From Sagittula sp. P11 (lineage in GTDB: Bacteria > Pseudomonadota > Alphaproteobacteria > Rhodobacterales > Rhodobacteraceae): 64,000 bases of DNA. Below are positions 14,470 to 58,385 of this stretch, in pieces. Within the stretch, counting starts at the first letter, position 1. Each line of letters starts with the position of its first letter. Position numbers and translations under genes: made by a program. The notes under the pieces are model-generated. The model was not told the DNA's origin, searched no databases, and worked only from the letters and a program-made list of their open reading frames with translations. Location of the stretch: contig NZ_CP021913.1 of NCBI RefSeq assembly GCF_002814095.1, positions 620,001 to 684,000 on the forward strand, read 5' to 3'.

Positions 14470-15272
14470 TGAGCGGGAATTCGATCAGGGACACCTTCTT
14501 CGAGGAATGCGAAGAGCTTCTCGAAGCGCTGGTGGAAGGTCTGGCCTCCATGGAGGAGAGCCCGGACGACATGGAAATCATCAACGCGGTCTTCCGCGCG
14601 GTGCATTCGATCAAGGGCGGCGCGGGGGCCTTCGGTCTCGAACGGCTGGTCAGTTTCGCCCACGCCTTCGAGACGGTGCTCGACAAGGTTCGCGACAAGG
14701 AACTCGGCATCGACGAGAAGCTGATGTCGGTGGCGCACCGCTCCGGCGACCAGCTGTCGGATCTCGTGGCCTCCGCCCGCGACGACAGCCCCTTGGACGA
14801 GGCGGCGGAAGACGAACTCAAGAAGGAGCTGGAAAGCTACCTCGGCGGCAGCGCCGATGCCGAGGAGTTCTCCTTCGACGCGCTGACGCTGGACTTCGGC
14901 GGGGGCGGCGCGACCGCCGCCGTGGAAGAGGCCGAGGCAACCGGGCAGCGGGTGTTCTCCATCCGGTTCAAGCCGATGAAGGCGCTCTATGAAAACGGCC
15001 ACGAGCCGCTGCTGATCTTCGATGCCCTGGCAGAGTTCGGCACGCTCAGCGTGACGGCCGACCTGTCCGGCCTGCCGGCCTTCGACGCCTTCGATCCGAA
15101 CGACGCGGTGATCTCCTGGACGCTGACGCTCACGACCGGGGAAAGCGAGACGACCCTGCACGAGGTCTTCGAGTTCGTCGAAGGGCTGTGCGAACTGGAC
15201 GTCAGCGTGGAGGAAGGCGCGGCCCCCCGGTCATGGTGGCCGCCCCACCGCCAGCCGCCTCCGCCCCTATAG
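14469..15272 (+). CDS. cheA: CheA, N-terminal part (P1 HPt and linker), ends by frameshift
   Basis: First fragment of the chemotaxis histidine kinase. The HPt (P1) domain is intact with phospho-acceptor His46 in FRAVHSIKGGAGAFG. Residues about 155-250 (VFSIRFKPMKALYENGHEPLLIFDALAEFG...) look like the following regulatory or substrate-binding domain. The reading frame runs through the run of six C at 15223-15228 and then ends in a short nonsense tail rich in Pro (RSWWPPHRQPPPPL-stop). With one added C the frame continues into the rest of CheA starting GTC ATG GTG. The gene is thus split by an apparent 1-base deletion, a sequencing error or a slippage site. Upstream it overlaps cheY by 1 bp. 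Confidence 0.85.
   Translation: MSGNSIRDTFFEECEELLEALVEGLASMEESPDDMEIINAVFRAVHSIKGGAGAFGLERLVSFAHAFETVLDKVRDKELGIDEKLMSVAHRSGDQLSDLVASARDDSPLDEAAEDELKKELESYLGGSADAEEFSFDALTLDFGGGGATAAVEEAEATGQRVFSIRFKPMKALYENGHEPLLIFDALAEFGTLSVTADLSGLPAFDAFDPNDAVISWTLTLTTGESETTLHEVFEFVEGLCELDVSVEEGAAPRSWWPPHRQPPPPL
15223..15228 (+). other. C6 run at the cheA frame break
   Basis: Six C between GCGG and GGTC. The upstream frame reads GCC CCC CGG TCA; the downstream frame reads CCG GTC ATG. One extra C (seven) or a -1 slip restores a single CheA. Homopolymers of this kind are typical sites of sequencing error, replication slippage or transcriptional slippage. Confidence 0.8.
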
Positions 15273-43320: not shown

Positions 43321-43497
43321 ATGTCCCAGACACGAAATCGCGCCGCCTGCGCAGCGGCAAGGACAGGTCAAGGCTCGGGCGGAATTAATGCGTGGTGCGG
43401 GAAGGAACTGGCCTGCGGTTGGCCACACGGCTCAGGCGGCTCGGACATGACGATGACACGGCACATGGCTTTCCCGCCCGAAAGAGAGGTTGACTGA
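43321..43497 (+). CDS. Possible 58-codon leader or remnant ORF
   Basis: An ATG 4 bases after GGAGGAGGAA (43307-43316), one of the best ribosome-binding sites in the window, opens a 58-residue frame that ends at 43497, two bases before the FGGY kinase ATG. The peptide (MSQTRNRAACAAARTGQG...) resembles no family and is Ala/Gly/Arg-rich. It may be a leader peptide, or the stump of a gene whose body was lost. Translation through it would be coupled to the kinase. Confidence 0.35.
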   Translation: MSQTRNRAACAAARTGQGSGGINAWCGKELACGWPHGSGGSDMTMTRHMAFPPEREVD

Positions 43498-43498
43498 G

Positions 43499-45067
43499 AT
43501 GAAACACCTGATCGGTATCGACGTGGGCACAGGGTCGGCGCGGGCCGGGGTCTTTGACGAGACGGGCGTCCTGAAGGGATCCGCCGTGCAGGAGATCGCG
43601 ATCTGGAAAGGCGACGGCAACCGGGTCGAGCAGTCCTCCGTCGACATCTGGTCCGCCGTCTGCCAGGCCGTGCGCGGGGCGGTCGACGCCTCCGGTGTGG
43701 ACCCGGCCAGCGTGGCCGGCATCGGCTTCGATGCCACCTGTTCGCTGGTGATCCTCGGCCAAGGCGGCTTGCCGCTGCCGGTCAGCGAAGATCGCAACAT
43801 CATCGTCTGGATGGATCACCGCGCCACCGGACAGGCGGAGCGGATCAACGCGCTTGGCCATCCGGTGCTGGACTACGTGGGCGGCGTGATCTCGCCCGAG
43901 ATGGAGACGCCCAAGCTCCTCTGGTTGAAGGAGAACGCGCCCGACATCTACGACGTTGCTTGGCAGTTCATGGATCTCACCGACTTCCTGACGTGGAAGG
44001 CGTCGGGCGATCTGGCCCGGTCTGTCTGCACCGTCACCTGCAAGTGGACCTACCTCGCCCACGAGAACCGCTGGGACGCGAGTTATTTCGAGAAGGTCGG
44101 GCTGGGCGATCTGAGCCGCGACGACTTCTTCCGGATCGGCAGCCGGGTGGTGCCCGCCGGGACAGCGCTTGGCCATGGTTTGACCGCCGAGGCCGCCGAA
44201 GACATGGGCCTGCCGGAGGGCACACCGGTCGGCGCCGGGCTGATCGACGCGCATGCCGGGGGTCTGGGAACGGTCGGAACGGCGGGCGATCCGACGCGCG
44301 ACCTTGCCTACGTCTTCGGCACATCTTCCTGCACGATGACGACCACAGCCGAGCCTGCCTTCGTGCCGGGGGTCTGGGGGCCCTACCATTCGGCGATGGT
44401 CCCGGGCATGTGGCTGAACGAAGGCGGCCAATCGGCGGCGGGTGCTGCGGTGGACCAGCTGATCGACCATCACCCTTTCGCGCAGGTGGCCCACCGGCAG
44501 GCCAAGGCGGCAGGACAGTCCCTGCCCGCGTGGCTGGCGGATCGTGTGGGGGGCCGGGACGTGACCCAACTGGCCGCCGGGGTCCATGTTGTCCCCGAGG
44601 TTCTGGGCAACCGCGCGCCTCATGCCGACCCGCACCGGCGCGCCACCGTCATGGGGCTTGGCATGGATCGCGGGCCGGAGAGCCTGCTGGCGCTCTACCT
44701 CGCCACGCTGTGCGGACTGGGCTACGGGTTGCGCCAGATCATCGCTGCGCAGGCCGCCGCCGGTGCCGGGGTGGACCGCATCGCGGTGAGCGGCGGCGCG
44801 GGACGGCATCCGCTGGTCAGACAGATCCTCGCCGATACGACGGGCAAACCGGTGCTGGCGCCCGAGACAGACGAACCCGTGCTGCTGGGGGCCGCGATGC
44901 TGGGGGCACTGGCGTCCGGGTTGCGTAAAGATGCGGGCGACGCGATGCGCGCCATGTCGCGCGCCGGTGTCATCAACCATCCCGATGCGGAAGCAGTCCG
45001 GCGCCACGAAGGCAGATATGCCATCTTCGAGGCGCTTCAGGATGTGGCCGCACGGGCGAAGGCCTAG
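43499..45067 (+). CDS. FGGY carbohydrate kinase, D-ribulokinase-like
   Basis: A 522-residue FGGY kinase phosphorylating a sugar or polyol with ATP. It opens IGIDVGTGSARAGVFDETG and contains the segments GIGFDATCSLVIL, NIIVWMDHRATGQAERIN, YVGGVISPEMETPKLLWLKEN and DLTDFLTWKASG, which follow the human FGGY/yeast YDR109C D-ribulokinase group closely; GAGLIDAHAGGLGTVG holds the catalytic Asp. Expected product is D-ribulose 5-phosphate. The ATG has GAGAGG 9 bases upstream; a TTG 9 bases earlier is unlikely. It is convergent with the FAH-family gene, separated by a hairpin. Confidence 0.88.
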   Translation: MKHLIGIDVGTGSARAGVFDETGVLKGSAVQEIAIWKGDGNRVEQSSVDIWSAVCQAVRGAVDASGVDPASVAGIGFDATCSLVILGQGGLPLPVSEDRNIIVWMDHRATGQAERINALGHPVLDYVGGVISPEMETPKLLWLKENAPDIYDVAWQFMDLTDFLTWKASGDLARSVCTVTCKWTYLAHENRWDASYFEKVGLGDLSRDDFFRIGSRVVPAGTALGHGLTAEAAEDMGLPEGTPVGAGLIDAHAGGLGTVGTAGDPTRDLAYVFGTSSCTMTTTAEPAFVPGVWGPYHSAMVPGMWLNEGGQSAAGAAVDQLIDHHPFAQVAHRQAKAAGQSLPAWLADRVGGRDVTQLAAGVHVVPEVLGNRAPHADPHRRATVMGLGMDRGPESLLALYLATLCGLGYGLRQIIAAQAAAGAGVDRIAVSGGAGRHPLVRQILADTTGKPVLAPETDEPVLLGAAMLGALASGLRKDAGDAMRAMSRAGVINHPDAEAVRRHEGRYAIFEALQDVAARAKA

Positions 45068-45117: not shown

Positions 45118-45975
45118 TCAGCTTGCGGCCAGGACCCTGCTTCTCTGCTCCCCCAGCCCCGCGATGCCAAGCGAAACGGTCTCTCCGCCCTTCAAGTAAC
45201 GCGGCGGGGTCTTTCCCATGCCGACGCCCGGGGGCGTGCCGGTGGAGATCACGTCGCCGGGCTGCAGGCTCATGAACCGACTGCAATAGGCGACCAGATG
45301 GGGAACCTTGAAGATCAGCGTGGCGGTGCTGCCCGACTGCATCCGTTCGCCGTCGACGTCGAGCCACATGTCGAGCGCGTCGACATCGCTCACCTCGTCG
45401 GGCGTAACGAGCCACGGGCCGGTCGGTCCGAACGTGTCGCAGCCCTTGCCCTTGTCCCAAGACCCCGCGCGATGCAGCTGGAAGTCACGCTCTGACACGT
45501 CGTTGATGACGCAGAACCCGGCGACATGGTCCATCGCGTCGGCCTCCTCGATGTAGACGCCGGGCGCGCCGATCACCACGCCAAGCTCGACCTCCCAGTC
45601 GGTCTTTTCCGAGCCGCGCGGAACCTGGATCGGGTCGTTCGGCCCGCAGATGGCAGAGGTCCACTTGTTGAAGATGATCGGCTCTTCCGGGATGGGCATG
45701 CCGGATTCGGCGGCGTGATCGGCGTAGTTGAGGCCGATGCAGATGAACTTGCCGATGCCCCCGACACAAGGACCGAGGCGCAGGTCGTCCTGCGGCGTGC
45801 CCTCGACCCGCGGCAGGCTGGACGGATCGAGATTGCGCAGCGCGGCAAGGCCTTCGGGGCGCAGCACGTCGCCGGAGATGTCCGCCACCACGCCGGAGAG
45901 GTCGCGCACATGGCCCTCGCTGTCCAGAAGCCCGGGTTTCTCGGCCCCGGGCGGGCCGTAGCGCAGAAGTTTCAT
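45118..45975 (-). CDS. Fumarylacetoacetate hydrolase family protein
   Basis: A 285-residue FAH-fold enzyme. Conserved blocks: KFICIGLNYADHAAESGMP, PIIFNKWTSAICGPND and DWEVELGVVIG (two metal-ligand Glu), then GDVISTGTPPGVGMG. The closest functional types I know are 2,4-diketo-3-deoxy-L-fuconate/rhamnonate hydrolases and ureidoglycolate lyase-like proteins. It splits a C-C bond of a diketo acid with Mg2+. It follows the ABC ATPase on the minus strand (73-bp gap) and is probably last in that operon. Confidence 0.87.
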   Translation of the reverse strand: MKLLRYGPPGAEKPGLLDSEGHVRDLSGVVADISGDVLRPEGLAALRNLDPSSLPRVEGTPQDDLRLGPCVGGIGKFICIGLNYADHAAESGMPIPEEPIIFNKWTSAICGPNDPIQVPRGSEKTDWEVELGVVIGAPGVYIEEADAMDHVAGFCVINDVSERDFQLHRAGSWDKGKGCDTFGPTGPWLVTPDEVSDVDALDMWLDVDGERMQSGSTATLIFKVPHLVAYCSRFMSLQPGDVISTGTPPGVGMGKTPPRYLKGGETVSLGIAGLGEQRSRVLAAS

Positions 45976-46048
45976 GTCTGGTCCTTTCCTTGATGTCCGG
46001 CGAGGGCACAGCCCGGGTTGCGGACCTGCCGAGGCCGGAGCGTGCGGT

Positions 46049-47551
46049 TCACGCCACCTCCTGGCCAATGCCCGAAATCGCCTGGATCAGGCTGTCCTCG
46101 GTCACTTCCTCGGAGGTGAAGGTCCGCATGATGCGGCCCGAGTACATGGCGACGATCCGGTCGGAGACGTGCAAGACCTCCGGCATTTCCGAGCTGATGA
46201 CCATGACAGCATAGCCCTGCGCTGCCAGTTCGCGCAGCAGCTTGTGGATCTCCGACTTGGAGCCGACGTCGATGCCGCGCGTGGGTTCGTCCACGATCAG
46301 CACTTCGGGGTGCATGGAGAGCCACTTGCCGATGACGATCTTCTGCTGGTTGCCGCCCGACAGGTTGCCGACCTTCTGTTTCCAGCCGGGCGTGCGGATG
46401 TCGAGCCGGTCGCGGTACTGGTCGAAGATCGCCACCTCGGCCCCTTCGGCCATGAACGGCCCGGTCTTCAGGTCGTCGACCTGCGGCAGGGTCATGTTGT
46501 CCCGGCAGTTCATGCCAAGCACCAGCCCCTGCCCCTTGCGGTCCTCGGGGACTAGGGAGATGCCCTTTGAGATGGCGTCCGTCGGGCTGTGTATGCTGAC
46601 CTCCTTGCCCGCCAGCCGGATCTGCCCGGCAGAGGGGGTTCGCAGGCCGAAGAGAGTTTCCGCGATCTCGGTCCGCCCGGCGCCGACCAGGCCGTAGAAG
46701 CCCACGACCTCGCCGCGCCGGATCTCGAAGGAGACGTCCTTGTAGAGCTTGCCGCAGGACAGGCCCCGCACCTCCAGCGCAACCTCTCCCAGTTCGTGGT
46801 GCGCGGCGTTGCGGCTGAGGTCGAGCTTGCGGCCGATCATCATCTGCGTCACCGCCTCCTCCGTGGTCTCGGCGGTGTTCACCGTGCCCTGGTACTGGCC
46901 GTCGCGCAGGATAGAGATGCGGTCGGTGATGCGGAAGATCTCTTCCATGCGGTGGGAGATGTAGATGACCCCCACCCCGTCACGCTTCAGGTCGGCGATC
47001 ACGTCGAACAGGACGACCTTCTCCGCATCGGTCAGAGAGGCGGTGGGCTCGTCGAAGATCACCGCCTTGGCGTCCACGGTCAGGGCGCGGGCGATCTCCA
47101 CCATCTGCTGGTTGGCGATCGACAGGTCGCCAACCCGGGTGCGCGCGTCGAAGCCCACGTTCAGCTTGCCGAGGATCGCGTCGGTCTTCTTCGTGAGCGT
47201 CGCCCAGTCGACCCGGCCGAAGCTCTTTCGCGGCAGTTCTCCGAGGTAGATGTTCTCGGCCACGCTCAGTTCCTCGGCGAGGCTGAGCTCCTGGTGGATG
47301 AAGACGATGCCCTTGGCCTTCGCCTCAAGCGGGCCGGCCATGACGACCTTTTGGTCGCCCATGTAGATCGCGCCTTCGGTGGGCTGGTGGATGCCGCCGA
47401 GCACTTTCATCAGGGTCGACTTGCCGGCCCCGTTCTCGCCCATGAGGGCGTGAACTTCGCCGGGCATGACGGAGAGCGACACCCCGTCCAGCGCCCGGAC
47501 GCCGGGGAAGGTCTTGACGATGTCTTCGAGACGCAGAACCGGTTGTGTCAT
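46049..47551 (-). CDS. Sugar ABC transporter ATP-binding protein (RbsA-type, double cassette)
   Basis: A 500-residue double ATPase for a CUT2 sugar importer. The first cassette has Walker A GENGAGKSTLMKVLGG, signature LSIANQQMVEIARAL and Walker B VIFDEPTASL. The second has the degenerate P-loop GLVGAGRTEIAETLFG, signature LSGGNQQKIVIGKWL and LIVDEPTRGIDVG, as usual for RbsA/MglA. It overlaps the first permease by 4 bp (ATGA). Confidence 0.94.
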   Translation of the reverse strand: MTQPVLRLEDIVKTFPGVRALDGVSLSVMPGEVHALMGENGAGKSTLMKVLGGIHQPTEGAIYMGDQKVVMAGPLEAKAKGIVFIHQELSLAEELSVAENIYLGELPRKSFGRVDWATLTKKTDAILGKLNVGFDARTRVGDLSIANQQMVEIARALTVDAKAVIFDEPTASLTDAEKVVLFDVIADLKRDGVGVIYISHRMEEIFRITDRISILRDGQYQGTVNTAETTEEAVTQMMIGRKLDLSRNAAHHELGEVALEVRGLSCGKLYKDVSFEIRRGEVVGFYGLVGAGRTEIAETLFGLRTPSAGQIRLAGKEVSIHSPTDAISKGISLVPEDRKGQGLVLGMNCRDNMTLPQVDDLKTGPFMAEGAEVAIFDQYRDRLDIRTPGWKQKVGNLSGGNQQKIVIGKWLSMHPEVLIVDEPTRGIDVGSKSEIHKLLRELAAQGYAVMVISSEMPEVLHVSDRIVAMYSGRIMRTFTSEEVTEDSLIQAISGIGQEVA

Positions 47552-48549
47552 ACCCTCAGCTCCTCTTTGCCCTTGATGTTCAACTGCCGGTCGAGGAACA
47601 GAACCGCGATCAGGATCAGACCGATCACAAGGTTTACCGTTGAAGTATCTGCCCCGATGTGGCCCAGCCCCTTGCGCAGAAGCTGGATCGCGATGACCCC
47701 GCCGAAGGTGCCGATGACGTTGCCTGCCCCGCCGGTGATCTTGGTGCCGCCCAGCACGACCGCTGTGATGACCCAGAGCTCGTAGAGCTGCCCGTCGTTG
47801 GGGTTCACCGACCCGCTTTCCGAGTAGAAGACCACCGCCGACAGTGCGGCGAGGAAGCCGATGATGGCGAAGTTGATCATCATGTGCGGGCCGACGCGGA
47901 TGCCCGCATTCACCGCCGCCTCGCGGTTGTCGCCGATGGCATAGGCGTTGCGGCCATGCACCGTGCGGGCCATGAGGAACCACATCACGAGCGTGACGCC
48001 CAGCAGGAACCATGTGGCGGTCGCCAGCCCGAGGAACTCTGCCTCGGCGAAGTCCACCAGCGTCCAGTTGAGGTGGCTTGTCGGGTTCTCGCCGTTGAAC
48101 ATGAAGACGATGCCGCGGTAGCCCAGCATGGACCCAAGCGTGACGATGAAGGCGTCGACGCCGGTCTTCCATACGATCAGACCGTTCAGCGCGCCCAGCA
48201 GCGTACCGACCGTCAGGGCCAGCAGCCACGCCACCGGGATCACCCAGTCGCCGAGGCCCGCGAAGATCGGCCAGGTCATGGAGTCGAGCAGGATGATCGC
48301 CGCGATGGCGAAAGTGGCGCCGACCGACAGGTCGATGTTGCCGTTCACCATGACGATGGTCATGCCCATGGCGATGATGCCGATGGGCGCCGACTGCTTG
48401 AACAGCAGCAGCATGTTCTCGAGGTCCATGAACGCCTTGTCGGAGACCGAGAGGTATTCGCCCGCGATGCTGAAGAACAGCAGTTCCAGCAGGATGAAGC
48501 CCCAGATCGCGCCGCCCTTGAGCGCTGCGGAGAAATTGACCTTTTGCAT
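47548..48549 (-). CDS. Sugar ABC transporter permease (second)
   Basis: A 333-residue RbsC-type permease with about 8-10 membrane segments; it includes IIAMGMTIVMVNGNIDLSVGATFA, the conserved EAA-like CUT2 motif region, RTVHGRNAYAIGDNREAAVNAGIRV and AVVLGGTKITGGAGNVIGTFGG. It differs from the other permease, so the two probably form a heterodimer in the membrane. It overlaps the ATPase by 4 bp and follows the first permease after 13 bases. Confidence 0.92.
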   Translation of the reverse strand: MQKVNFSAALKGGAIWGFILLELLFFSIAGEYLSVSDKAFMDLENMLLLFKQSAPIGIIAMGMTIVMVNGNIDLSVGATFAIAAIILLDSMTWPIFAGLGDWVIPVAWLLALTVGTLLGALNGLIVWKTGVDAFIVTLGSMLGYRGIVFMFNGENPTSHLNWTLVDFAEAEFLGLATATWFLLGVTLVMWFLMARTVHGRNAYAIGDNREAAVNAGIRVGPHMMINFAIIGFLAALSAVVFYSESGSVNPNDGQLYELWVITAVVLGGTKITGGAGNVIGTFGGVIAIQLLRKGLGHIGADTSTVNLVIGLILIAVLFLDRQLNIKGKEELRV

Positions 48550-48562
48550 TGCCGTGCCTCCC

Positions 48563-49537
48563 TTACGCGATCATGGACCAGAGCTTGCCGCGCTTGGCCG
48601 CAATATCCAGCCAGACCGCGAGAATAATGATGATCCAGGTGACGACGAACTGGACGTAGAACTGCAAGCCCACGAGCAGCAGCCCGTTCTGGATGAAGCC
48701 GAGGATCAGCACCCCGATCACGGTCTTGAAGATCGTTCCCGACCCGCCCAGCAACGACGCCCCGCCAAGGATCACCGCGGCCAGCACCTCGAGTTCCAGC
48801 CCCTGCCCCACGGTGTTCTGCGACCCGAGCGAGCGGCTGGCCTGGATCAGGCCGGCGGTCGCAACACAGCCCGCCGAGATCAGGTAGCAGGTGAAGACGG
48901 TGCGCGCCCTGCGGATGCCCGAGAAGGTCGCCGCCGTGCCGTTGCCGCCCACCGCGTAGACCTTGCGCCCGAAGGGCGTCCTCGCCAGCGCCAGCCCGAG
49001 GAACGCGGCCAGTGCCAAGAAGATCAGGATCGGGACGGGAATGCCAAGCGCCGTGCCCTGCCCGAAGACGGAGAACCATGTGCCCTCCTTGTCCGCGATG
49101 TCCATGTTCTGGCCGCCGGAATAGGTCAGCGTCAGACCGTGGATCGCAGACAGCATCCCCAGCGTCACGATCAGCGAGTTGAGCCTGAGATAGCCGACCA
49201 GGAACCCGATGAAGGCGCCGAGGCATAGGGTCATGGCGAACATCAGCGGAATGGCCAGCGCGGGGCCGACCTTGTCGTGCAGGTCGAGCACCACGATGGT
49301 CGAGAAGGACATCATCGATCCGACCGACAGGTCGAGGTTGCCGCTGATGACGACAAACGTCACGCCAAGCGCCATCACGCCCAGGATCGCGGACGACCGC
49401 ACGACGCTGAAGACGTTGTCGACGGAAATGAACTTCGGATTGGCGATGGTGAAGGCGATCATGAACAGCGCGAAGGCGATCAGGATACCCTGTTTCGCCA
49501 GAACGCTGCCGATCTCCCTTTTGTCGAAAACTGCCAT
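48563..49537 (-). CDS. Sugar ABC transporter permease (first)
   Basis: A 324-residue RbsC-type permease. The family core is clear: GVMALGVTFVVISGNLDLSVGSMMS, RTPFGRKVYAVGGNGTAATFSGI and AAVILGGASLLGGSGTIFKTVIGVL. A pair of permease genes occurs in Lsr- and Ytf-type systems. The upstream gene is an SDR dehydrogenase, so a catabolic enzyme is embedded inside the transporter operon. Confidence 0.92.
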   Translation of the reverse strand: MAVFDKREIGSVLAKQGILIAFALFMIAFTIANPKFISVDNVFSVVRSSAILGVMALGVTFVVISGNLDLSVGSMMSFSTIVVLDLHDKVGPALAIPLMFAMTLCLGAFIGFLVGYLRLNSLIVTLGMLSAIHGLTLTYSGGQNMDIADKEGTWFSVFGQGTALGIPVPILIFLALAAFLGLALARTPFGRKVYAVGGNGTAATFSGIRRARTVFTCYLISAGCVATAGLIQASRSLGSQNTVGQGLELEVLAAVILGGASLLGGSGTIFKTVIGVLILGFIQNGLLLVGLQFYVQFVVTWIIIILAVWLDIAAKRGKLWSMIA

Positions 49538-49598: not shown

Positions 49599-50405
49599 TC
49601 AGACCAGCGTCATCCCCCCGTCGATCATCACGATCTGCCCGGTCATGTAGTCGCTCTCTCGCGACGCGAGGAAGGTGGTCGTTCCCGTGATGTCGGGCGG
49701 CGTGGCAACACGGCCCTTGAGTATCGAGGAGGAGAACTCCTCCATCGCCTGACCGGGCCGGGCAGAGGCGCCGATCTCCATAAGGTCGCGGTCGACCTGT
49801 TCCCACATCTCGGTCTTCACGACACCGGGCGCGAAGCCGGTCACGGTAATCCCGTGCCTGGCAAGGTCGCGAGCGCCGGATTGCGTCAGCGACACCACAG
49901 CGAACTTCGACGCGCAGTAGGGTGCCACATTGTCGAAGCCTTGACGGCTCGCGACAGAGGCGGTGTTGACGATCTTGCCCGCCATGCCATCGGGTCCCCG
50001 GCCCTGCGCCATCATCTGACGGGCCGCCTCCTGCATGCCGATCATGCAGCCCAGACCGTTCACGCCCATGATGAAATTCCAGTTGGCTTCGTCCACGTCC
50101 ATGAAGTTCATCGGCTTGTTGACGCCCGCGTTGTTGAACTTCACGTCGAGCCGTCCGAAGGTCTCGACGGTGTGGTCGATCATCGCGCGAACGGCGGTGC
50201 GGTCCGTCACGTCCACCCGGGCCGAGGTCACGTTCTGCGCGTCGAAGCGTGCGCTGTTCTGTTCGGCGACCGCGGCGACACCGTCACCGTCGATGTCGGC
50301 AAAACAGACCTTCGCGCCCTCTTCCAGCAGCGCCTCGCCGATTGCGCGGCCGATGCCGCGCGCCGCGCCCGTCACGATGCAGGCGCGCCCCGTCACACGT
50401 CCCAT
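49599..50405 (-). CDS. SDR dehydrogenase, polyol-dehydrogenase-like (first paralogue)
   Basis: A 268-residue short-chain dehydrogenase. The NAD site is IVTGAARGIGRAIGEAL, the NAG motif is KFNNAGVNKP, and the catalytic residues lie in NTASVASRQ and PYCASKFAVV (YxxxK). The segment FAPGVVKTEMWEQVDRDL matches the GVV..W loop of sorbitol/polyol dehydrogenases. It is close to the SDR at 53545. I start it at MGRVTGRA with GAGGAAA upstream. It lies between the binding-protein and permease genes, so it is likely the first step on the imported polyol. Confidence 0.9.
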   Translation of the reverse strand: MGRVTGRACIVTGAARGIGRAIGEALLEEGAKVCFADIDGDGVAAVAEQNSARFDAQNVTSARVDVTDRTAVRAMIDHTVETFGRLDVKFNNAGVNKPMNFMDVDEANWNFIMGVNGLGCMIGMQEAARQMMAQGRGPDGMAGKIVNTASVASRQGFDNVAPYCASKFAVVSLTQSGARDLARHGITVTGFAPGVVKTEMWEQVDRDLMEIGASARPGQAMEEFSSSILKGRVATPPDITGTTTFLASRESDYMTGQIVMIDGGMTLV

Positions 50406-50496
50406 GGCGTGTTTCCTCACATGTCTTGGGTTTGGTCCAACCGACAATGCGGGGCACGCAGGTATTTGCGCGCGCCCCGCACCGCGGGAGGATCGA

Positions 50497-51459
50497 TCAG
50501 AACACCGGCTTGGAGAACTCTTCCATGTTGTCCTGGGTGATCTTCGGCGTGTCGAAGTAGTTCAGGAACGGCACCTCTTCACCGCTCAGCACGTCGACCG
50601 CGGTCTGCAGCGCGGCCTTCGCGTCGTCGACCGGCGACTGGTAGATCGAACCCCAGTAGTCGCCCGCTGCCATGGCCTCGTAGCCCACGGCGAAGTTGGT
50701 CGCGCCGACAAAGATGATGCCGTCGCGGCCCGCGGCCTTGGCGGCGTTCAGCGCGCCCACACCCATGTTGTCGTCGCCGGCATAGACGCCGTCGATGTCA
50801 TCGTACTTCACGAGGAAGGCTTCCATGACCTGCTGCGACTTCTCGCGGTTCCAGTCGCCCGGCTGGGTGTCGACGACGGTCACGTTCGGGCAGACCTCCG
50901 GCAGGCGGTCCTCAAAGCCCTTGGCGCGCTCGATGGCGGTGGTGTAGCCCGGCTGGCCGGTGATGTGGACGACCTGCGCCTCGTCCTCGATGCCCATTTC
51001 CTTGAACTTGTCGCACATGATCTCGGCCGAGCGGGCGCCCTGCGTGATGTTGTCCGGACCAGAGAAGGACTTCACGAAATCGAAGCCCTGCTCGGCGATG
51101 TTCGAATTGGTCACGATGACCGGTATGCCGGCCTGGTGCGCCTTGCGAACAGCGGGGATCACCGCTTCGCCGTTGGTCGGCCAGATGATGATGGCGTCCA
51201 CATCCTGCTGGATGAGGTCTTCCATCTGCGCGATCTGGCGGGCCACGTCGCCGCCCGCGTCGAGCACGATGGTCTCGACCATGTCGTTGGCCTCTGCCGC
51301 CTCGATGAAGGCCTTCTCGTAGGTGGTCTGGTAGCTGTCGACGCCCACGTTGTTCTGCGTGATGCCGATCTTCATCGCGCCGCCGTGGCTTTCGGCAAAG
51401 GCGGCCCCGCCGAACGTGACCGCTGCGGTGGTGACCGCAAGAATCGTCCTGATCTTCAT
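50497..51459 (-). CDS. Sugar ABC transporter periplasmic binding protein (RbsB-like)
   Basis: A 320-residue CUT2-type binding protein with signal peptide MKIRTILAVTTAAVTFGGAAFA. It contains KIGITQNNVGVDSYQTTYEKAF, QMEDLIQQDVDAIIIWPTNGEA and DIDGVYAGDDNMGVGALNAAKAAG, the family hinge and ligand-contact regions. First gene of the leftward operon and divergent from the fusion regulator. SD AGGAATAAC precedes the ATG (GGGAGGAATAAC). The ligand is a sugar or sugar alcohol, most likely a pentitol or hexitol by context. Confidence 0.93.
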   Translation of the reverse strand: MKIRTILAVTTAAVTFGGAAFAESHGGAMKIGITQNNVGVDSYQTTYEKAFIEAAEANDMVETIVLDAGGDVARQIAQMEDLIQQDVDAIIIWPTNGEAVIPAVRKAHQAGIPVIVTNSNIAEQGFDFVKSFSGPDNITQGARSAEIMCDKFKEMGIEDEAQVVHITGQPGYTTAIERAKGFEDRLPEVCPNVTVVDTQPGDWNREKSQQVMEAFLVKYDDIDGVYAGDDNMGVGALNAAKAAGRDGIIFVGATNFAVGYEAMAAGDYWGSIYQSPVDDAKAALQTAVDVLSGEEVPFLNYFDTPKITQDNMEEFSKPVF

Positions 51460-51607
51460 GTTATTCCTCCCATGGAATTGACTGAGCGGGTGCCGCACCT
51501 CTTGCGACCATCCCCGGGGCTCCTCCCGGGCCCCCTGAACCATCCGGCCTGGCCGAATGAACGTGACTCAGCGTGCCCGGTTTTGACGCAGAGGCATCCA
51601 TCAAAAA

Positions 51608-51641
51608 TATCCGAAATGAGATATGATTTATCCAGAATGGA
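51608..51641. promoter_or_regulatory. Tandem operator-like repeats TATCCnnAATGrr
   Basis: TATCCGAAATGAG (51608-51620) and TATCCAGAATGGA (51629-51641) are direct repeats exactly 21 bases apart (two helical turns) in the AT-rich part of the divergent region between the binding protein and the HTH-SBP regulator. A further CATCC-N5-GGATG dyad lies at 51713-51727, inside the start of the regulator gene. The repeats fit an autoregulatory operator; the assignment is inference. Confidence 0.45.
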
Positions 51642-51696
51642 CAGATTCTCGATACGCACCGGGGATCACATTGGACATCCTGCAAGGAGACCCGCG

Positions 51697-53526
51697 GTGA
51701 CACAACGCGATTCATCCAAGATGGATGCGGCGAATGGGCCGCACAGCCACCCGAACATCAAGAAGAAGACGCAGGCCATGAACGACATGGGAGGACATGA
51801 CCGACAAAGCCCCGCCGCACCGCTGGCGAAGCCGGAGGCCGTGGAGATCCTGTCCTTCCTCGAAGCCTTCAGCGACGAGCTTGAGGGCGCGCTCGACCTC
51901 GTGGCCCCAAACGCGCACCTGCGCATGATGATGCACCTGCTGCAGGGGCACCTGGACGGCAAGACGGTCACGCCCACTTCGCTGATCGGCGCCAGCCGCG
52001 TGCCCTATGCCACGGCGAACCGACGACTGAAGGAGATGGTCGATGCCGGCCTGATCGAACAGCGCCCGCGCACCGCTACCGGCAAGAGCTTCTCGATGCA
52101 CCCCAGCGAGGCGATGATCGAGACGTGGATGCAGCTGTCGGGCCGCCTGCGCCGCTTGGGCGAAACCACCTTCGGCGGGCCGGGCCGTGGGCAGGACACC
52201 CGCGACTATTACTTCGGCGGCAGCTACATCGCCGCGCAGTCCATCCCGCCGCTGCGGGTGCTGCACGAACCGCTTAAGGTCTCGGGCGGGCTGCGGGTGC
52301 TGGTGCATGGCGATCCGACCTTCATGGTCATGGACACGCTCAAGCGCCAGTTCGAACAGGTGATCGGCACGGAGATCAGCCAGCGCGCCTTTTCCATCGA
52401 CCGCCTGCGCGAAGAGGCCCTGCGCAACGCCGCCCGCGACGCCAGCCGCTACGACATAATCGCGGTGGACCTTCCGTGGATCGGCGAGTTCGCCAGCAAG
52501 AACGTCCTCATGCCGCTGGACGATGCCATGGACCTTTCCCGGCTCGACCCGGCGGACTTTCACACCGCGGGCTGGCAAGGCGCGCATTGGGGCGGACGGG
52601 CCTACGGCGTACCGGCGCAGACCACGCCGGAACTCCTGTTCTACCGCCATGACTTGTTCGCCAAGGCCGGGCTTGAGCCGCCCTCCACCACCGAAACGCT
52701 GCTGGATGCGGCGCGTGCGCTGCATGACCCGCAGCGCGGCAAGTACGGCATCGCCTGGAACGCCGCGCGCGGGACTGCGCTGGGTCACACGGTGCTGATG
52801 ACCTTTGCCGACTTCGGCCAGCCGATCCTCGACCTTCCGGAACAAGCGGGCGGTTTCGGGACGGAACACCTCGCCCGGGGTCATTACCGCGCGACGATCA
52901 ACACCGATGCCGGTCTGGCCGCGGCCGAGTTCCTGCTGGAGCTTCTGAAGTATTCGCCCCCCGACATCCTGTCGATGTCCTGGTACGAGCGGGTCCGCCC
53001 CTATGCCGCCGGGAAGGTGGCCATGGCCTACGGCTATACGCTGCTGGCCCCCTACTTCGAACTGGACGAGACCTCGCCCGCCTGCGGCCAGACTACCTAC
53101 CTGCCACATCCGCCGGCACCGGGCATGCGGCCCGTCGCCCCGGTCGGCGGCTACGTCATGGGCATCCCCGCCAACCTCGCGCCAGAACGGGTGCCCGCGG
53201 CGGTCGAAGCGCTGCGGGTCTTCACCTCGCCGGAGGCGCAGAAGCTGTACGTGCAGAACGGCAGCCGCACCAACCCGCGCTACTCGGTCGGGGCGGATCC
53301 GGACGTGCGCCGCCTCTCGACCATCTTCGAGGCGGTCGACGGGATGTCATGGCGCGACGAACTGCAATTCTGGCCGCGCCCGCCGGTGCCGGAGATCGGC
53401 GACATCTTCAAGATCTGCGGCGAGGAATTCCACGACATGCTCCGCGGGATTGTCTCCCCGCGCGAGGCTTTGCGCCGCGCACAGGACCGCGCCGACGCAT
53501 TGATCGGACAAAACGGGACACCGTGA
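51697..53526 (+). CDS. Winged-helix / solute-binding-protein fusion regulator
   Basis: A 609-residue protein without signal peptide or membrane segment. Residues about 45-150 form a winged helix of MarR/GntR-like size: a helix with LVAPNAHLRMMMHLLQGHL, the recognition helix PTSLIGASRVPYATANRRLKEMVDAGLIEQRP and a wing TATGKSFSMHP. From about 185 to 590 it resembles a CUT1-type sugar-binding protein: FMVMDTLKRQFEQVIGTEISQ, DIIAVDLPWIGEFA, GVPAQTTPELLFYRHDLFAKAGL, and MRPVAPVGGYVMGIP. The GTG start at 51697 has AAGGAGA 6 bases upstream. The architecture predicts a cytoplasmic regulator that senses the sugar with a binding-protein fold. It heads the rightward operon. Confidence 0.8.
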   Translation: MTQRDSSKMDAANGPHSHPNIKKKTQAMNDMGGHDRQSPAAPLAKPEAVEILSFLEAFSDELEGALDLVAPNAHLRMMMHLLQGHLDGKTVTPTSLIGASRVPYATANRRLKEMVDAGLIEQRPRTATGKSFSMHPSEAMIETWMQLSGRLRRLGETTFGGPGRGQDTRDYYFGGSYIAAQSIPPLRVLHEPLKVSGGLRVLVHGDPTFMVMDTLKRQFEQVIGTEISQRAFSIDRLREEALRNAARDASRYDIIAVDLPWIGEFASKNVLMPLDDAMDLSRLDPADFHTAGWQGAHWGGRAYGVPAQTTPELLFYRHDLFAKAGLEPPSTTETLLDAARALHDPQRGKYGIAWNAARGTALGHTVLMTFADFGQPILDLPEQAGGFGTEHLARGHYRATINTDAGLAAAEFLLELLKYSPPDILSMSWYERVRPYAAGKVAMAYGYTLLAPYFELDETSPACGQTTYLPHPPAPGMRPVAPVGGYVMGIPANLAPERVPAAVEALRVFTSPEAQKLYVQNGSRTNPRYSVGADPDVRRLSTIFEAVDGMSWRDELQFWPRPPVPEIGDIFKICGEEFHDMLRGIVSPREALRRAQDRADALIGQNGTP

Positions 53527-53544: not shown

Positions 53545-54354
53545 ATGGACCCCAATCGCTTGAAGGGAAAGAACATCCTGATCACCGGTGCCGCGCGCGG
53601 CATGGGTGCGGCCAGCGCCGAAAGCTTTGCCGCGCAGGGGGCGAACGTCTGCCTCGGCGACCTGGACGAGGCCGAGGCGCAGAAGGTCGCTGACCGGATC
53701 AACGCCGCCGGGAACGGCCGCGCCATCGCGGTGAAGATGGACGTGACCAAACGGGAGGATAACGCGGCCGCCGTCGCGGCCGTGGTGGACGCCTTCGGAT
53801 CGATCAACGTCGCCCTGTTCAACGCGGGCCTGAACAAGCCCCGGTTCTTCATGGATATCGATGAGGACAACTGGGACATGATCATGAACGTCAACACCAA
53901 GGCCATGTGGCTTGGCATGCAGGAGACGGCGAAGCAGATGATCGCGCAGGGCCCGATGGAGGATCATCCCTACAAGCTGATCAACGTGGGCAGCATCGCC
54001 TCCCGCAAGCCGCTGGTAGACGTGACCGTCTATTGTACGTCGAAATACGGCTGTCTGGCGCTGACCGAATGCGGCGCGCTCGGACTGGCCGAACACAACA
54101 TCACCGTCAACGGCTATGCGCCCGGCGTGGTCGTCACCCCGCTGTGGGAGCAGCTCGACAAGGACCTGGTCGAGATCGGCTTCAAGGAACGCGAGGGGCA
54201 GGCCTACGACGACATCGTCGCCAACAACCTCGTCATCAAGCGCGTCTCCTACCCCAAGGACATCACCGGGACCGCATCCTTCCTGGCGTCCGACGACAGC
54301 GACTACATGACCGGCCAGATGATCTCCATCGACGGCGGCTGGGTCACGAAGTAA
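53545..54354 (+). CDS. SDR dehydrogenase, polyol-dehydrogenase-like (second paralogue)
   Basis: A 269-residue SDR: NAD motif LITGAARGMGAASAESFA, NAG motif in ALFNAGLNKPRFF, catalytic block NVGSIASRK and VYCTSKYGCL (YxxxK variant), and YAPGVVVTPLWEQLDKDLVEIG. The loop GVV..LWEQLDKDL and the FMDIDEDNW segment are almost the same as in the SDR at 49599, so the two are paralogues on the two arms of the divergon. SD AGGAGGAGG before the ATG. Cofactor and substrate are not known; a polyol or sugar acid is likely. Confidence 0.9.
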   Translation: MDPNRLKGKNILITGAARGMGAASAESFAAQGANVCLGDLDEAEAQKVADRINAAGNGRAIAVKMDVTKREDNAAAVAAVVDAFGSINVALFNAGLNKPRFFMDIDEDNWDMIMNVNTKAMWLGMQETAKQMIAQGPMEDHPYKLINVGSIASRKPLVDVTVYCTSKYGCLALTECGALGLAEHNITVNGYAPGVVVTPLWEQLDKDLVEIGFKEREGQAYDDIVANNLVIKRVSYPKDITGTASFLASDDSDYMTGQMISIDGGWVTK

Positions 54355-54421: not shown

Positions 54422-55720
54422 ATGTCCCGCGCACTGATGCCGAACCTGCTGACCCCGCAAGACCTCGAACCCAATTGGGAGTGGCGCGAACGCCTTCCCG
54501 CATGGGGCCATACCTCAGTCGACTTCGAACGCCGCATCGACCATGACCGCCTGCGCCGCTACCGGCTGGCCCGGACGCGGCAGGCGCTGCAGAACTCGCC
54601 CGCAGGCACGCTCTTGCTGTTCGACGTGAACAACATCCGCTACGTTTCGGCCACCAAGATCGGCGAATGGGAGCGGGACAAGATGTGCCGCTTCTGCCTG
54701 CTGACCGGCGACGACAGCCCCTACGTCTGGGATTTCGGATCGGCCGCCGAGCATCACAAGCGCTACTCCGACTGGCTGGAACCCAGCCATTGCCTTGCCG
54801 GCGTGGTGGGGATGCGCGGGACGATCCCGCCTGAATTCGGCCTGATGAAGAAATACGCCAAGCAGATCGCCGGGCTGATCCGCGACGCAGGAATGGGCGA
54901 CATGCCGGTGGGTGTCGATTATGCCGAGACGGCGATGTTCCACGCGCTGCAAGAGGAGGGTCTGCACGTCGTCGACGGCCAGCAGATCATGCTCGCCGCG
55001 CGCGAGATCAAGAACTGGGACGAGATCCAGCTTCTGACGCAGGCGGCCAGCATGGTCGATGGCGTTTACCACATGATCTACGAAGAGCTGAAACCCGGCA
55101 TCCGCGAGAACGACATCGTCGCGCTGTCGAACAAGATGCTCTACGAGATGGGCTCGGACGACGTGGAGGCGATCAACGCCATTTCCGGCGAGCGCTGCAA
55201 CCCGCACCCGCACAACTTCACCGACCGCTACTTCCGCCCCGGGGATCAGGCCTTCTTCGACATCCTGCAATCCTACCAGGGCTACCGGACCTGCTACTAC
55301 CGGACCTTCAACATCGGCCGCGCGACGCCGTCGCAGAACGATGCCTACGTAAAGGCGCGTGAGTGGATCGACGCCTCGATTGCCGCGATCAAGCCGGGGG
55401 TGACGACAGATCAGGTGGCAAAGCTCTGGCCCAAGGCAGAGGAATTCGGATTTCCGAACGAGGACGCCGCCTTCGGCCTGCAGTTCGGCCACGGTCTGGG
55501 TCTGGCGCTGCACGAACGCCCGATCATCTCGCGTGCCGTCAGCCTCGATCACCCGATGGAGATCCAGACCGGAATGGTCTTTGCGCTGGAAACCTATTGC
55601 CCGGCGACCGACGGCTACTCCGCCGCGCGGATCGAGGAAGAGGTCGTCGTGACCGAGAAGGGCTGCGAGGTCATCTCCCTCTTCCCCGCCGAAGACCTGC
55701 CCATCGCGAACCGGTACTGA
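54422..55720 (+). CDS. M24 family (creatinase/prolidase-like) protein with substituted metal ligand
   Basis: A 432-residue pita-bread-fold protein related to Xaa-Pro peptidase, creatinase and DddP. N-terminal creatinase-like domain (about 40-200) with LLLFDVNNIRYVSATK. In the catalytic domain the first Asp (AFFDILQSY) is present, the His (GHGLGLALHERP) is present, and Glu residues occur in ALETYCPA and ARIEEEVVV, but the second Asp ligand, expected 11 residues after the first, is Cys (GYRTCYYRTF). SD CGGAGGAG precedes the ATG. It is in the sugar operon between two SDR genes; role unknown. Confidence 0.85.
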   Translation: MSRALMPNLLTPQDLEPNWEWRERLPAWGHTSVDFERRIDHDRLRRYRLARTRQALQNSPAGTLLLFDVNNIRYVSATKIGEWERDKMCRFCLLTGDDSPYVWDFGSAAEHHKRYSDWLEPSHCLAGVVGMRGTIPPEFGLMKKYAKQIAGLIRDAGMGDMPVGVDYAETAMFHALQEEGLHVVDGQQIMLAAREIKNWDEIQLLTQAASMVDGVYHMIYEELKPGIRENDIVALSNKMLYEMGSDDVEAINAISGERCNPHPHNFTDRYFRPGDQAFFDILQSYQGYRTCYYRTFNIGRATPSQNDAYVKAREWIDASIAAIKPGVTTDQVAKLWPKAEEFGFPNEDAAFGLQFGHGLGLALHERPIISRAVSLDHPMEIQTGMVFALETYCPATDGYSAARIEEEVVVTEKGCEVISLFPAEDLPIANRY

Positions 55721-55723
55721 GCG

Positions 55724-56488
55724 ATGCGCAATCCGTTCGATCTGACAGGCCGCAAGGCCCTTGTCACCGGCGGGGCGACCGGCATCGGTGAGGGCATCGC
55801 CCTCGCCCTTGCCGCCGCCGGTGCCGACGTTGCCCTCACCTACCGGAGCCACCAGCCCGAGGATACGCTGGCCCGGATCGAGGCTGTGGGACGCAAGGCC
55901 GCCGCCGTGCGCGCCGATTTCGCCGGGATGGACGAGGCCGGCGCCAGGGAGGTTGTGACCTTCGCTGCCGACGCGCTTGGCGGGCTAGACATCCTCGTCA
56001 ACAATGCGGGCATCATCCATCGCGAGGACTCGACCGACATGGCGCTGGACGACTGGCGCCGAGTGCTTTCCGTTAACCTCGATTCCGTGTGGCTTCTTTC
56101 ACAGGCCGCCGGACAACGCATGGTCGCCCAAGGAAGCGGGAAGATCGTCATCGTGTCTTCGGTGCTCGGCTCGCAGGGGGGGCTGCGGGTGCCGGCCTAT
56201 GCCTCCTCGAAACACGCGGTGTTGGGCCTGACAAAGGCGCTTTGCAACGAGTGGGCGCCGCACGGCGTGAACGTCAACGCCATCGCCCCCGGCTACACCG
56301 CCACGGACAACACGCAGGCACTGCGCGACGATCCCGACCGCTCGAAGGCGCTGCTGGACCGCATACCGGCAGGCCGCTTCGCCGAGCCGTCGGAGATCGC
56401 GGGCGCCGCGGTGTTCCTCGCCTCCGAAGCCGCCGCCTACTGCCACGGCAGTTGCGTGACGGTGGACGGCGGCTGGCTCGCCCGATGA
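55724..56488 (+). CDS. SDR dehydrogenase (KduD/gluconate 5-dehydrogenase-like)
   Basis: A 254-residue SDR. NAD site ALVTGGATGIGEGIALALAAAG, NAG motif DILVNNAGIIHRED, catalytic Ser in VSSVLGSQGGL and YASSKHAVLGL (YxxxK), and the C-terminal VTVDGGWLAR. It most resembles 2-deoxy-D-gluconate 3-dehydrogenase (KduD) or gluconate 5-dehydrogenase: the opening MRNPFDLTGRKALVTGG is typical. It follows the M24 stop by 3 bases, and its own stop lies 12 bases before the next ATG. Confidence 0.9.
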   Translation: MRNPFDLTGRKALVTGGATGIGEGIALALAAAGADVALTYRSHQPEDTLARIEAVGRKAAAVRADFAGMDEAGAREVVTFAADALGGLDILVNNAGIIHREDSTDMALDDWRRVLSVNLDSVWLLSQAAGQRMVAQGSGKIVIVSSVLGSQGGLRVPAYASSKHAVLGLTKALCNEWAPHGVNVNAIAPGYTATDNTQALRDDPDRSKALLDRIPAGRFAEPSEIAGAAVFLASEAAAYCHGSCVTVDGGWLAR

Positions 56489-56499
56489 AGGAGAAGACC

Positions 56500-57243
56500 A
56501 TGGAACAGACACTTGCGGGCAAGACCGCCCTCGTCACCGCCGCCGCCAACGGTATCGGGCGAGCGTCTGCCGAGGCGCTGGCCGCGCGCGGTGCGACGGT
56601 CATCGCCACCGACATCGACGGCGACGGCGTGGCCCGGATTGCCGAGGGGACAGACCGGATCAGCGCGCACCGACTGGACGTGCTGGACGCAGACGCCGTC
56701 GCGGCGCTGATCGCCGATCTCCCGCCGGTCGACATCCTCGTGAACTGCGCCGGATGGGTGCATGACGGCAGCATCCTCGACTGTGACGATGCGGTGTGGG
56801 ACCGGTCGTTCGAGCTGAACGCCAAGGCCCTCTTCCGGCTGACGAAGGCCGTCCTGCCGGGCATGCTGGACAAGGGTGCGGGCTCCATCGTCAACATCGC
56901 CTCCATCGTATCGAGCGAGAAAGGCGCGCCGCGCCGCTTCGCCTACGGCGCCTCCAAGGCCGCGATCATCGGCATGACCAAGTCGATCGCCGCCGATTTC
57001 GTGAAGGACGGCATACGCTGCAACGCGATCTGCCCGGGCACCGTGCAAAGCCCCTCGCTCGAAGACCGGCTGCGCGCGACAGGCGACTTCGACAAGGCGC
57101 TGGCCAGTTTTACCGCCCGCCAGCCCATGGGCCGCCTCGGCAAGCCGGAGGAGATCGCCGCGATGGTCTGCTACCTCGCCGGCGACCTGGCGGGTTTCAC
57201 CACGGGGCAGGCCTTTGCCGTCGACGGCGGGTGGTCGATCTGA
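56500..57243 (+). CDS. SDR dehydrogenase (2-keto-3-deoxy-fuconate dehydrogenase/DHRS6-like)
   Basis: A 247-residue SDR that resembles human BDH2/DHRS6 and bacterial 2-keto-3-deoxy-L-fuconate dehydrogenase. NAD site ALVTAAANGIGRASAEALAARG with DIDGDG after strand 2, DILVNCAGWVHDG, SIVNIASIVSSEKG, catalytic RFAYGASKAAIIGMTKS and RCNAICPGTVQSPSLEDRL, the signature of that subgroup. I use the ATG at 56500 because AAGGAG is 6 bases upstream; an in-frame ATG at 56485 is less likely. Its stop overlaps the next start (TGATG). Confidence 0.9.
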   Translation: MEQTLAGKTALVTAAANGIGRASAEALAARGATVIATDIDGDGVARIAEGTDRISAHRLDVLDADAVAALIADLPPVDILVNCAGWVHDGSILDCDDAVWDRSFELNAKALFRLTKAVLPGMLDKGAGSIVNIASIVSSEKGAPRRFAYGASKAAIIGMTKSIAADFVKDGIRCNAICPGTVQSPSLEDRLRATGDFDKALASFTARQPMGRLGKPEEIAAMVCYLAGDLAGFTTGQAFAVDGGWSI

Positions 57244-58385
57244 TGCGACTGGACCGTGCCGCCTCCATCGACGATCTGCGCGACATGGCCCGTCGCCGCA
57301 TCCCGCGCTTTGCCTTCGATCTGGTTGATGGCGGCGCGGAGTCAGAGCGCAACATGCGCCGCAACTGCACCGCCTTCGAGGAGATGGAACTGGTGCCGCG
57401 CTACATGGTCGATGTCTCGAAAATCGACACGCGCACGGAGGTTTTCGGTCAGACCTACAATGCCCCCTTCGGCATGGCCCCCATCGGCATGCTCAACGCC
57501 TTCTGGCCGGGGGCGGACATCGCGCTGGCGCAGCTTTGCAAGCGGGAGAACCTGCCCTATGTCGCCTCTTCCGCCGCCTCAACCACGCTGGAGGCGCTGG
57601 CCGAGGCCGCGGATGGCAACGGCTGGTTCCAGCTCTACGTCTCGGGGGACGGCACGGTGACGGAGGGGCTCGTGTCCCGCGCCGAGGCTGCGGGCTACGA
57701 CGTGATGCTCGTCACCGCCGATGTGCCCGCCGCCGGGAAGCGGGACCGCGACATCCGCAACCAGCTGGCCGTGCCGTTCCGGATCACGCCGGAGGTCGCG
57801 CTGGGGCTCCTGGCCCATCCCCGCTGGTCGCTGGAGACGCTCCTTCACGGAAAACCCAACATCGCCAACTATGCCGACCTGCTGCAATCCGCGACGTCCT
57901 ACGCCGAGGTTCAGAAGACCCTCATCACGCCGGCATTCGATTGGGAGGCCCTGCAGCGGCTGCGCGACCGCTGGGGCGGCAAGCTGCTGGTGAAGGGCAT
58001 CCTCCACCCCGACGACGCCCTGCGTTGCGCCGGGACCGGGTGCGACGGCATCGTCGTCTCCAACCACGGCGGCCGCCAGGTCGCCTTCGGCCCAGCCACC
58101 GCGGACGTTCTGCCCGGCATCGCAAAGGCGGTCGCGGGCCGGATGAAGGTGATCGTGGACAGTGGCATCCGGCGGGGTGCGGACCTCATGCGCGCAAAGG
58201 CCCTGGGGGCAGACTTCGCCCTGACCGGACGGGCGCTCGCCTTCGGCGTGGGCGCAGGCGGCGCGCATGGCGCGGCGCGGGCGGTGGAGATCCTCGAGCT
58301 GGAACTGGTGCGCGCCCTGGGCCAACTCGGCGTCCCCCACTTCGGCGACGTCGGCCCCGAGCACCTGGCACGGTCGCGAACGTAA
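57243..58385 (+). CDS. FMN-dependent alpha-hydroxy-acid dehydrogenase (LldD-like)
   Basis: A 380-residue FMN enzyme of the L-lactate dehydrogenase/glycolate oxidase family. It shows ARRRIPRFAFDLVDGGAESE (start), LVPRYMVDVSKIDT, APIGMLNAFWPGAD (FMN phosphate site), WFQLYVSGD, LLVKGILHPDDA, DGIVVSNHGGRQ with the catalytic His, VIVDSGIRRGADLMRAKALGADF (Arg and FMN site). Full family length, though the last ~20 residues run up to the IS remnant. In an L-fuconate-type pathway it would oxidise the released L-lactate to pyruvate. It overlaps the SDR by one base. Confidence 0.9.
   Translation: MRLDRAASIDDLRDMARRRIPRFAFDLVDGGAESERNMRRNCTAFEEMELVPRYMVDVSKIDTRTEVFGQTYNAPFGMAPIGMLNAFWPGADIALAQLCKRENLPYVASSAASTTLEALAEAADGNGWFQLYVSGDGTVTEGLVSRAEAAGYDVMLVTADVPAAGKRDRDIRNQLAVPFRITPEVALGLLAHPRWSLETLLHGKPNIANYADLLQSATSYAEVQKTLITPAFDWEALQRLRDRWGGKLLVKGILHPDDALRCAGTGCDGIVVSNHGGRQVAFGPATADVLPGIAKAVAGRMKVIVDSGIRRGADLMRAKALGADFALTGRALAFGVGAGGAHGAARAVEILELELVRALGQLGVPHFGDVGPEHLARSRT

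Follow-up and report, generated by a model that had tools for sequence, protein, structure and literature searches.

The 64-kb window analysed here (the whole stretch of DNA, 64,000 nt) raises the question of whether a protein with a CUT1-type solute-binding fold works outside the cell, as its usual database name implies, or inside the cell, as the sensor of a transcriptional regulator. The initial annotation proposed the latter, that is, a cytoplasmic fusion of a winged helix and a CUT1-type fold, encoded divergently from a CUT2 importer. Domain searches, two AlphaFold models, synteny and a palindrome array all agree with this central proposal, and we assign a probability of about 0.75 to the reading that the protein, designated REG, is a cytoplasmic, ligand-responsive one-component regulator that controls the CUT2 importer as well as the catabolic operon to which it belongs. 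The gene and the parts of its product are as follows.

51684..51689, + strand: Shine-Dalgarno motif AAGGAG, ending 7 nt 5′ of the REG GTG
51697..53526, + strand: REG, wHTH-SBP regulator, GTG start, 609 aa (609 codons plus stop), one uninterrupted frame, unbroken in 80 of 80 retained orthologues
51697..51831, + strand: polar N-terminal tail, residues 1–45, variable, missing or different in distant homologues, pLDDT below 50
51913..52173, + strand: MarR-like winged helix, residues 73–159, from the predicted structure, related to response-regulator output domains
52174..52290, + strand: interdomain linker, residues 160–198, predicted confidence partly low
52291..53511, + strand: MalE-like CUT1-type solute-binding domain, residues 199–605, from Pfam, PDB sequence relatives and the predicted fold

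Both the single open frame and the strong Shine-Dalgarno motif described at the outset were recovered. None of the 80 retained orthologues has a stop before residue 560 of the aligned frame, and the few early stops among the orthologues are all at the C-terminal ends. The outcomes that the initial annotation had named as speaking against it, namely a frame break, a second protein or an export signal on the C-terminal half, were not seen; the alternative that REG represents two separate proteins is ruled out because the frame runs through in all of these orthologues.

The DNA-binding segment PYATANRRLKEMVDAGLIEQ, which had been placed at the front of the protein, corresponds to residues 103–122 and lies within the predicted MarR-like winged helix. 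No Pfam HTH model reached its cut-off on the window REG; there were only sub-threshold matches around residues 84–126, the best of them MarR_2 at 16.5 bits (Pfam cut-off 27). A first AlphaFold model, of REG on 62 aligned sequences (mean pLDDT 71.5), contains the winged helix at 73–159, a poorly predicted linker at 158–182 and the binding-protein fold at 199–605. A second model, of residues 70–200 on 21 diverse sequences (mean pLDDT 78.2), gave block means of 82–97 across residues 70–159, and the PDB structures that matched it best belong to the MarR family, although the scores are moderate (TM 0.4–0.6, E 4.4e-4 at best). The order of elements in the model is a helix, the HTH, a two-strand wing and a long helix, and this winged helix of about 90 residues is kept in frame across homologues. 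Searches with the full-length and winged-helix profiles also turned up shorter regulators of other alphaproteobacteria that carry a related winged helix at their C-terminal end. The three of these that were scanned (L117, L118 and L120) each have a receiver domain, and HTH_27 exceeded its cut-off in one of them. A further response regulator, L182, read by eye, likewise has a related MarR-like winged helix as its output domain. In the betaproteobacterial full-length member L191, HTH_IclR matched on the N-terminal side at 31.0 bits against a cut-off of 22. As judged from sequence and predicted fold, the putative DNA-binding half of REG is a real domain.

The CUT1-type character that had been ascribed to the C-terminal 400 or so residues was confirmed by profile search as well as by structure prediction. 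Pfam SBP_bac_1 matched residues 242–516 with an E-value of 4.3e-26 (93.1 bits, cut-off 26), and SBP_bac_8 matched this half too. Its relatives in the PDB by sequence are 5iai, 1eu8, 4qrz and 6dtq, and the best Foldseek matches of the predicted fold are the MalE-like solute-binding proteins 5iai, 1eu8, 5ci5 and 6dtq. In alignment A1 (the window REG and 61 of the 80 retained orthologues), residues D258, Y447, G484-G485 and Y486 show little or no variation over the 62 rows; the members from streamlined genomes have N at the position of D258 and W at that of Y447. We take these positions to align with sugar contacts of the trehalose/maltose-binding protein (1eu8). Since they are kept in the clamshell, ligand binding is favoured.

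To what extent is this combination of domains distributed beyond the closest relatives? In the class (385 genomes, up to three candidates scored per genome), the full-length profile gave nine matches at E ≤ 1.3e-117, each of them spanning both domains; the weaker matches listed, with E of 3e-38 and above, are only partial. Within the order, 57 of 292 genomes matched the winged-helix profile, and 68 of the 73 matches (up to three per genome) lie in open frames of at least 582 residues; among these 68, the check for the solute-binding domain covered the frames that were fetched. Across the phylum, winged-helix matches were found in 29 of 398 genomes, mostly weak and in shorter frames. In the plasmid collection, each of the 34 matching records aligns over 80% or more of the query, with Phaeobacter, Rhizobium, Tritonibacter, Shinella, Paraburkholderia and others as hosts.

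In a tree of the solute-binding domains, 39 fused rows are separated by a single branch (support 100/99) from 21 plain rows. Ten duplicate loci, seven plain domains of under 330 residues and near-copies within the fused set were omitted from the tree; most of its plain rows were picked up as best matches by the fused profile, and several of the long branches are uncertain. This sequence-based tree is consistent with a single fusion event. Among the 57 distinct solute-binding domains scoring above 200 bits, profile A3 detected the wHTH in 56, the 57th being L191 with its HTH_IclR match, compared with none of the 28 lower-scoring domains; this is not an independent count, as many of the loci were fetched with the wHTH or the full-length profile.

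The genes on either side of REG belong to two divergent operons.

46049..47551, − strand: CUT2 ATPase
47548..48549, − strand: CUT2 permease 1
48563..49537, − strand: CUT2 permease 2, assigned by operon position
49599..50447, − strand: SDR dehydrogenase A
50497..51459, − strand: CUT2 substrate-binding protein (Peripla_BP_4), from a domain scan
53545..54354, + strand: SDR dehydrogenase B, 18 nt 3′ of REG
54422..55720, + strand: M24-family enzyme
55724..58385, + strand: further catabolic genes SDR C, SDR D and FMN-dependent dehydrogenase, in only part of the orthologous loci

Conservation of this arrangement was assessed in 80 orthologous loci, the best 80 of 192 relatives in a scan of genome contigs (69–84% identity). 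The divergent CUT2 importer that had been noted beside REG is a constant feature: its binding protein is found divergent from REG in 79 of the 80 loci, and in the remaining one the contig ends before it. SDR B follows directly downstream of REG in 78 loci (two cut off), the M24 gene lies downstream in 75 (four cut off, one elsewhere), the ATPase and both permeases are present in 73 (seven cut off), and SDR A in 71. The core genes of the operon region are the two SDRs and the M24-family enzyme. The FAH hydrolase, SDR C and the FMN-dependent dehydrogenase are accessory, occurring in only part of the orthologous loci, and resemble a non-phosphorylating deoxysugar route.

Several observations concern individual enzymes of this region. 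The FAH hydrolase (45118–46068) is near 2,4-didehydro-3-deoxy-L-rhamnonate hydrolase, with 408 bits and a cut-off of 500; the genes at 55724–58385 include a KduD-like SDR and the FMN-dependent dehydrogenase and, together with 45118–46068, look like the tail of a deoxysugar route. SDR D was named by its BLAST match and its place. An FGGY pentulose kinase (43490–45067) scores 678.7 bits, with an NCBIfam cut-off of 408.7. For the M24-family enzyme, the nearest NCBIfam model is the DMSP lyase DddP, but this identity was rejected, since the match reaches 114 bits against a cut-off of 600.

More distant members were compared in the same way. Five of the nine strong class members, at 30–42% identity, were taken with long flanks, and three of these (L124–L126) come from genomes of 1.4 Mb. 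The latter are full-length, about 30% identical to the window REG, and lie near a CUT2-type importer, a relative of SDR B (56–58% identical) and a relative of the M24-family enzyme, which keeps 65–67% identity even in these small genomes. L122 has a CUT2-type importer and relatives of SDR B and the M24 enzyme nearby, and L123 the importer only. At locus L168, one CUT2 operon is flanked by two different REG-family members (6949–8784 and 14659–16416). By annotation, sugar ABC transporter genes are present near distant members in five of seven regions (L187, L188, L190, L193 and L191), with L191 having only a binding protein; none were seen in the annotated stretches of L189 and L192. The transporter genes at L188 and L190, two distant plasmid members, have a CUT1 make-up. 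Homologues with the same domain order are found beside importers of both types, a pattern that the initial annotation had proposed to look for. The rhizobial, Aminobacter and Loktanella members (L188, L189, L190, L192 and L193) have Gfo/Idh/MocA oxidoreductases, intradiol ring-cleavage dioxygenases or maleylacetate reductases as neighbours, which suggests other ligands for these members.

A candidate operator, ATCCANNNTGGAT, emerged from the divergent regions of 79 orthologous loci and the window taken together. Among exact gapped palindromes, ATCC-N5-GGAT (in 59 of these 80 regions) and TCCA-N3-TGGA (in 53 of 80) are the most frequent there. The elements in the window are as follows.

51570..51575, − strand: putative −10 box of the CUT2 operon, CAnnnT, from column conservation in 80 regions
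51609..51621, no strand: putative operator O1, ATCCGAAATGAGA, degenerate in the window, 6/10
51630..51642, no strand: putative operator O2, ATCCAGAATGGAC, 9/10
51653..51658, + strand: putative −10 box of REG, TACGCA here, consensus TAnnnT, from column conservation in 80 regions
51664..51676, no strand: weak putative operator O4, 6/10 in the window, position conserved in the orthologous regions
51714..51726, no strand: putative operator O3, ATCCAAGATGGAT, 10/10, inside the 5′ end of the REG coding sequence

A site was defined as at least 8 of 10 positions matching ATCCANNNTGGAT. Orthologous regions share descent, so that site counts over the 80 regions are not independent; at least one site was present in 79 of the 80 (mean 2.46), compared with 170 of 1,600 control windows from the same loci (mean 0.11). 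Eight decoy palindromes occurred in 1–24 of the 80 divergent regions, and in 100 shuffles of the same regions a site was found in 10.7 regions on average and in 21 at most. The commonest spacing between sites is 21 bp, about two helical turns, with 60 pairs at exactly this distance. A further site often lies 82–85 bp beyond (34 pairs), inside the coding start, where the palindrome may account for recurrent SSxxD codons. When the regions were aligned on the site pair, TAnnnT appeared at +44 to +49 (T 0.97, A 0.88, T 0.76) and, on the opposite strand at the CUT2-operon side, CAnnnT at −39 to −34 (0.97, 0.96, 0.95). The putative REG −10 box of the window is without the final T, and the −35 position that matches it falls inside O2; column conservation across the 80 regions revealed no clear −35 box for either promoter.

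Throughout the window, no sites other than O2 and O3 come within one mismatch of the pattern. At up to two mismatches, there are 10 matches, compared with 17.5 on average in shuffles; therefore, only the two best sites of the window stand out. In the organism's own genome, at most one mismatch was found at 53 places, compared with 12 for a reversed control pattern, and O3 is among the three perfect matches. Among 22 more distant or paralogous loci, a strong site is present in six (L124–L126, L178, L181 and L187), in none of the five of the 39–42% identity group and in one of the six of the 33–36% group. At L181, two sites are 21 bp apart. All three of L124–L126 have a 17-bp palindrome, ATATTCAnnnTGAATAT, at −45 to −54; these loci are AT-rich close kin, and the relaxed motif also occurs in 15–23 of 200 shuffles of each. 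With a strong site in only these six loci, an operator common to the whole family is not supported.

By sequence and prediction, REG carries a DNA-binding domain and a small-molecule domain in one soluble chain, and it probably binds the palindrome array. The MarR-like winged helix, presumably dimeric, would bind the ATCCANNNTGGAT palindromes between the two divergent operons, while the MalE-like clamshell would sense a ligand, probably either the compound taken up or a product of the first steps of its breakdown. In the absence of the ligand, REG would repress its own operon (REG, SDR B, the M24 gene and onward). Such self-repression is likely, because O2 covers the −35 position of REG and O4 and O3 lie at or just after the start point; with REG as the first catabolic gene and its putative promoter under O2, O4 and O3, repression without ligand is the simplest reading. 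Ligand binding would close the clamshell, the signal would pass through the linker, and repression would be relieved. The same protein might set the divergent CUT2 operon through O1 and O2, positioned upstream of the CUT2 promoter at about −53 and −74 relative to its putative start point. Many regulators activate from upstream positions such as these. A dual role is therefore plausible, but less sure, and we consider the odds even that the importer is activated rather than repressed. The ligand is probably the substrate of the importer or close to it. Since the sugars bound by CUT1-type clamshells are usually larger than those transported by CUT2 importers, the ligands of REG and of the importer may differ.

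REG could also be what its database name says, an exported CUT1 solute-binding protein of the usual kind whose N-terminus is odd, given that SBP_bac_1 matches well above its cut-off and that 26 of the 34 plasmid records are annotated "extracellular solute-binding protein". Because a plain 19-residue hydropathy measure gave no separation of REG from the CUT2 binding protein, export was gauged instead by how long a run within the first 45 positions stays free of charged or strongly polar residues. The longest run is 7 in the window REG and 3–10 in 67 REG sequences (the 62 of A1, window included, and five distant ones), compared with 16–22 in the CUT2 binding proteins of these loci (48 sequences). 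By this measure, a signal-peptide-like run is absent from all 67 and present in all 48, in agreement with the initial view that REG has no signal peptide. Export is, moreover, hard to reconcile with a conserved in-frame winged helix and with a neighbouring importer that is of the CUT2 type and has a binding protein of its own, so that this explanation is highly improbable.

A different possibility is that REG binds DNA but that its clamshell has lost ligand binding and serves as a platform for a dimer or a partner, for example by docking on the ATPase of the importer. This would account for a CUT1 fold adjoining a CUT2 importer, but the near-invariance of D258, Y447, G484-G485 and Y486 across the rows of A1 argues against it, and we regard it as unlikely. 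Similarly, the palindromes could serve another transcription factor while REG acts elsewhere or through another site, as the lack of a strong site in 16 of the 22 distant or paralogous loci might indicate. However, across the orthologous regions the array keeps a constant register relative to the putative REG promoter, and it recurs beside some distant REG homologues (L181, L187 and L124–L126), which makes this explanation improbable as well.

Taken together, there is a good likelihood that proteins of the REG type form an unrecognised family of one-component regulators, filed under the name "extracellular solute-binding protein", in which a clamshell of the CUT1 type shed its export signal, acquired a MarR-like winged helix on a single occasion, and became a cytoplasmic receptor that couples CUT2 importers, or CUT1 importers in some rhizobia, to catabolic operons, in the main branch via palindromes two helical turns apart. 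As such proteins are mostly annotated as parts of transport systems, transporter inventories are inflated and regulators are missed in Rhodobacterales, rhizobia and other groups. In the main branch, the conserved candidate operator provides a direct route for seeking target genes. The family would also offer a MalE-like sensor that is already wired to DNA binding, and would be useful for studying how the closure of a clamshell is passed on to a DNA-binding domain.

How does REG compare with known systems? The C-terminal 400 residues share fold and sequence with CUT1 solute-binding proteins (5iai, 1eu8 and 6dtq), but REG is without an export signal and is fused to a DNA-binding domain; a partnership with CUT1 permeases was not found in the window or its orthologues. 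MarR is a stand-alone protein of about 140 residues with the ligand pocket at the dimer interface, in contrast to REG, which has 609 residues and a separate sensor domain. The response regulators L117, L118 and L120 have a related DNA-binding domain, but their sensor is a receiver and their wing is C-terminal. GntR-SBP_bac_1 fusions in Firmicutes may be a further lead. Among the matches listed from open-licence papers, no SBP_bac_1 regulator with the architecture of REG was found, which is no proof of absence.

LysR-type regulators are often divergent from their targets and self-regulating. The periplasmic-binding-protein II domain is given as their main companion domain (PMC5882156), and, to that extent, they resemble REG in joining a DNA-binding domain to a binding-protein fold as sensor. 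However, the sensor of REG is a full, larger MalE-type clamshell, and LysR domains are absent among its Pfam matches to E = 1, so that REG is not a LysR member. Closer in principle are SgrR of Escherichia coli and its homologue DsvR of Vibrio cholerae, the latter described in a preprint as an N-terminal HTH with a C-terminal SBP_bac_5 domain (PMC13060122). Like REG, these transcription factors combine an HTH and a solute-binding-protein domain and, in that account, are tied to sugar metabolism (PMC13060122). Their sensor is SBP_bac_5 and the DNA-binding part of SgrR is SgrR_N, which is included as a Pfam family in a survey table (PMC7017128), whereas REG has a MarR-like wing, SBP_bac_1 and a divergent importer operon. 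Neither SgrR_N nor SBP_bac_5 is among the Pfam matches of REG to E = 1, and membership in the SgrR family was therefore rejected. The initial annotation had spoken of an undescribed sensory architecture. This stands insofar as REG belongs to a different and apparently unnamed family, but not for the cytoplasmic use of a binding-protein fold as a sensor, in which SgrR, DsvR and LysR precede it. From these precedents and the literature search, the principle is known, whereas the domain pairing of REG, its distribution and its operator appear to be newly described here.
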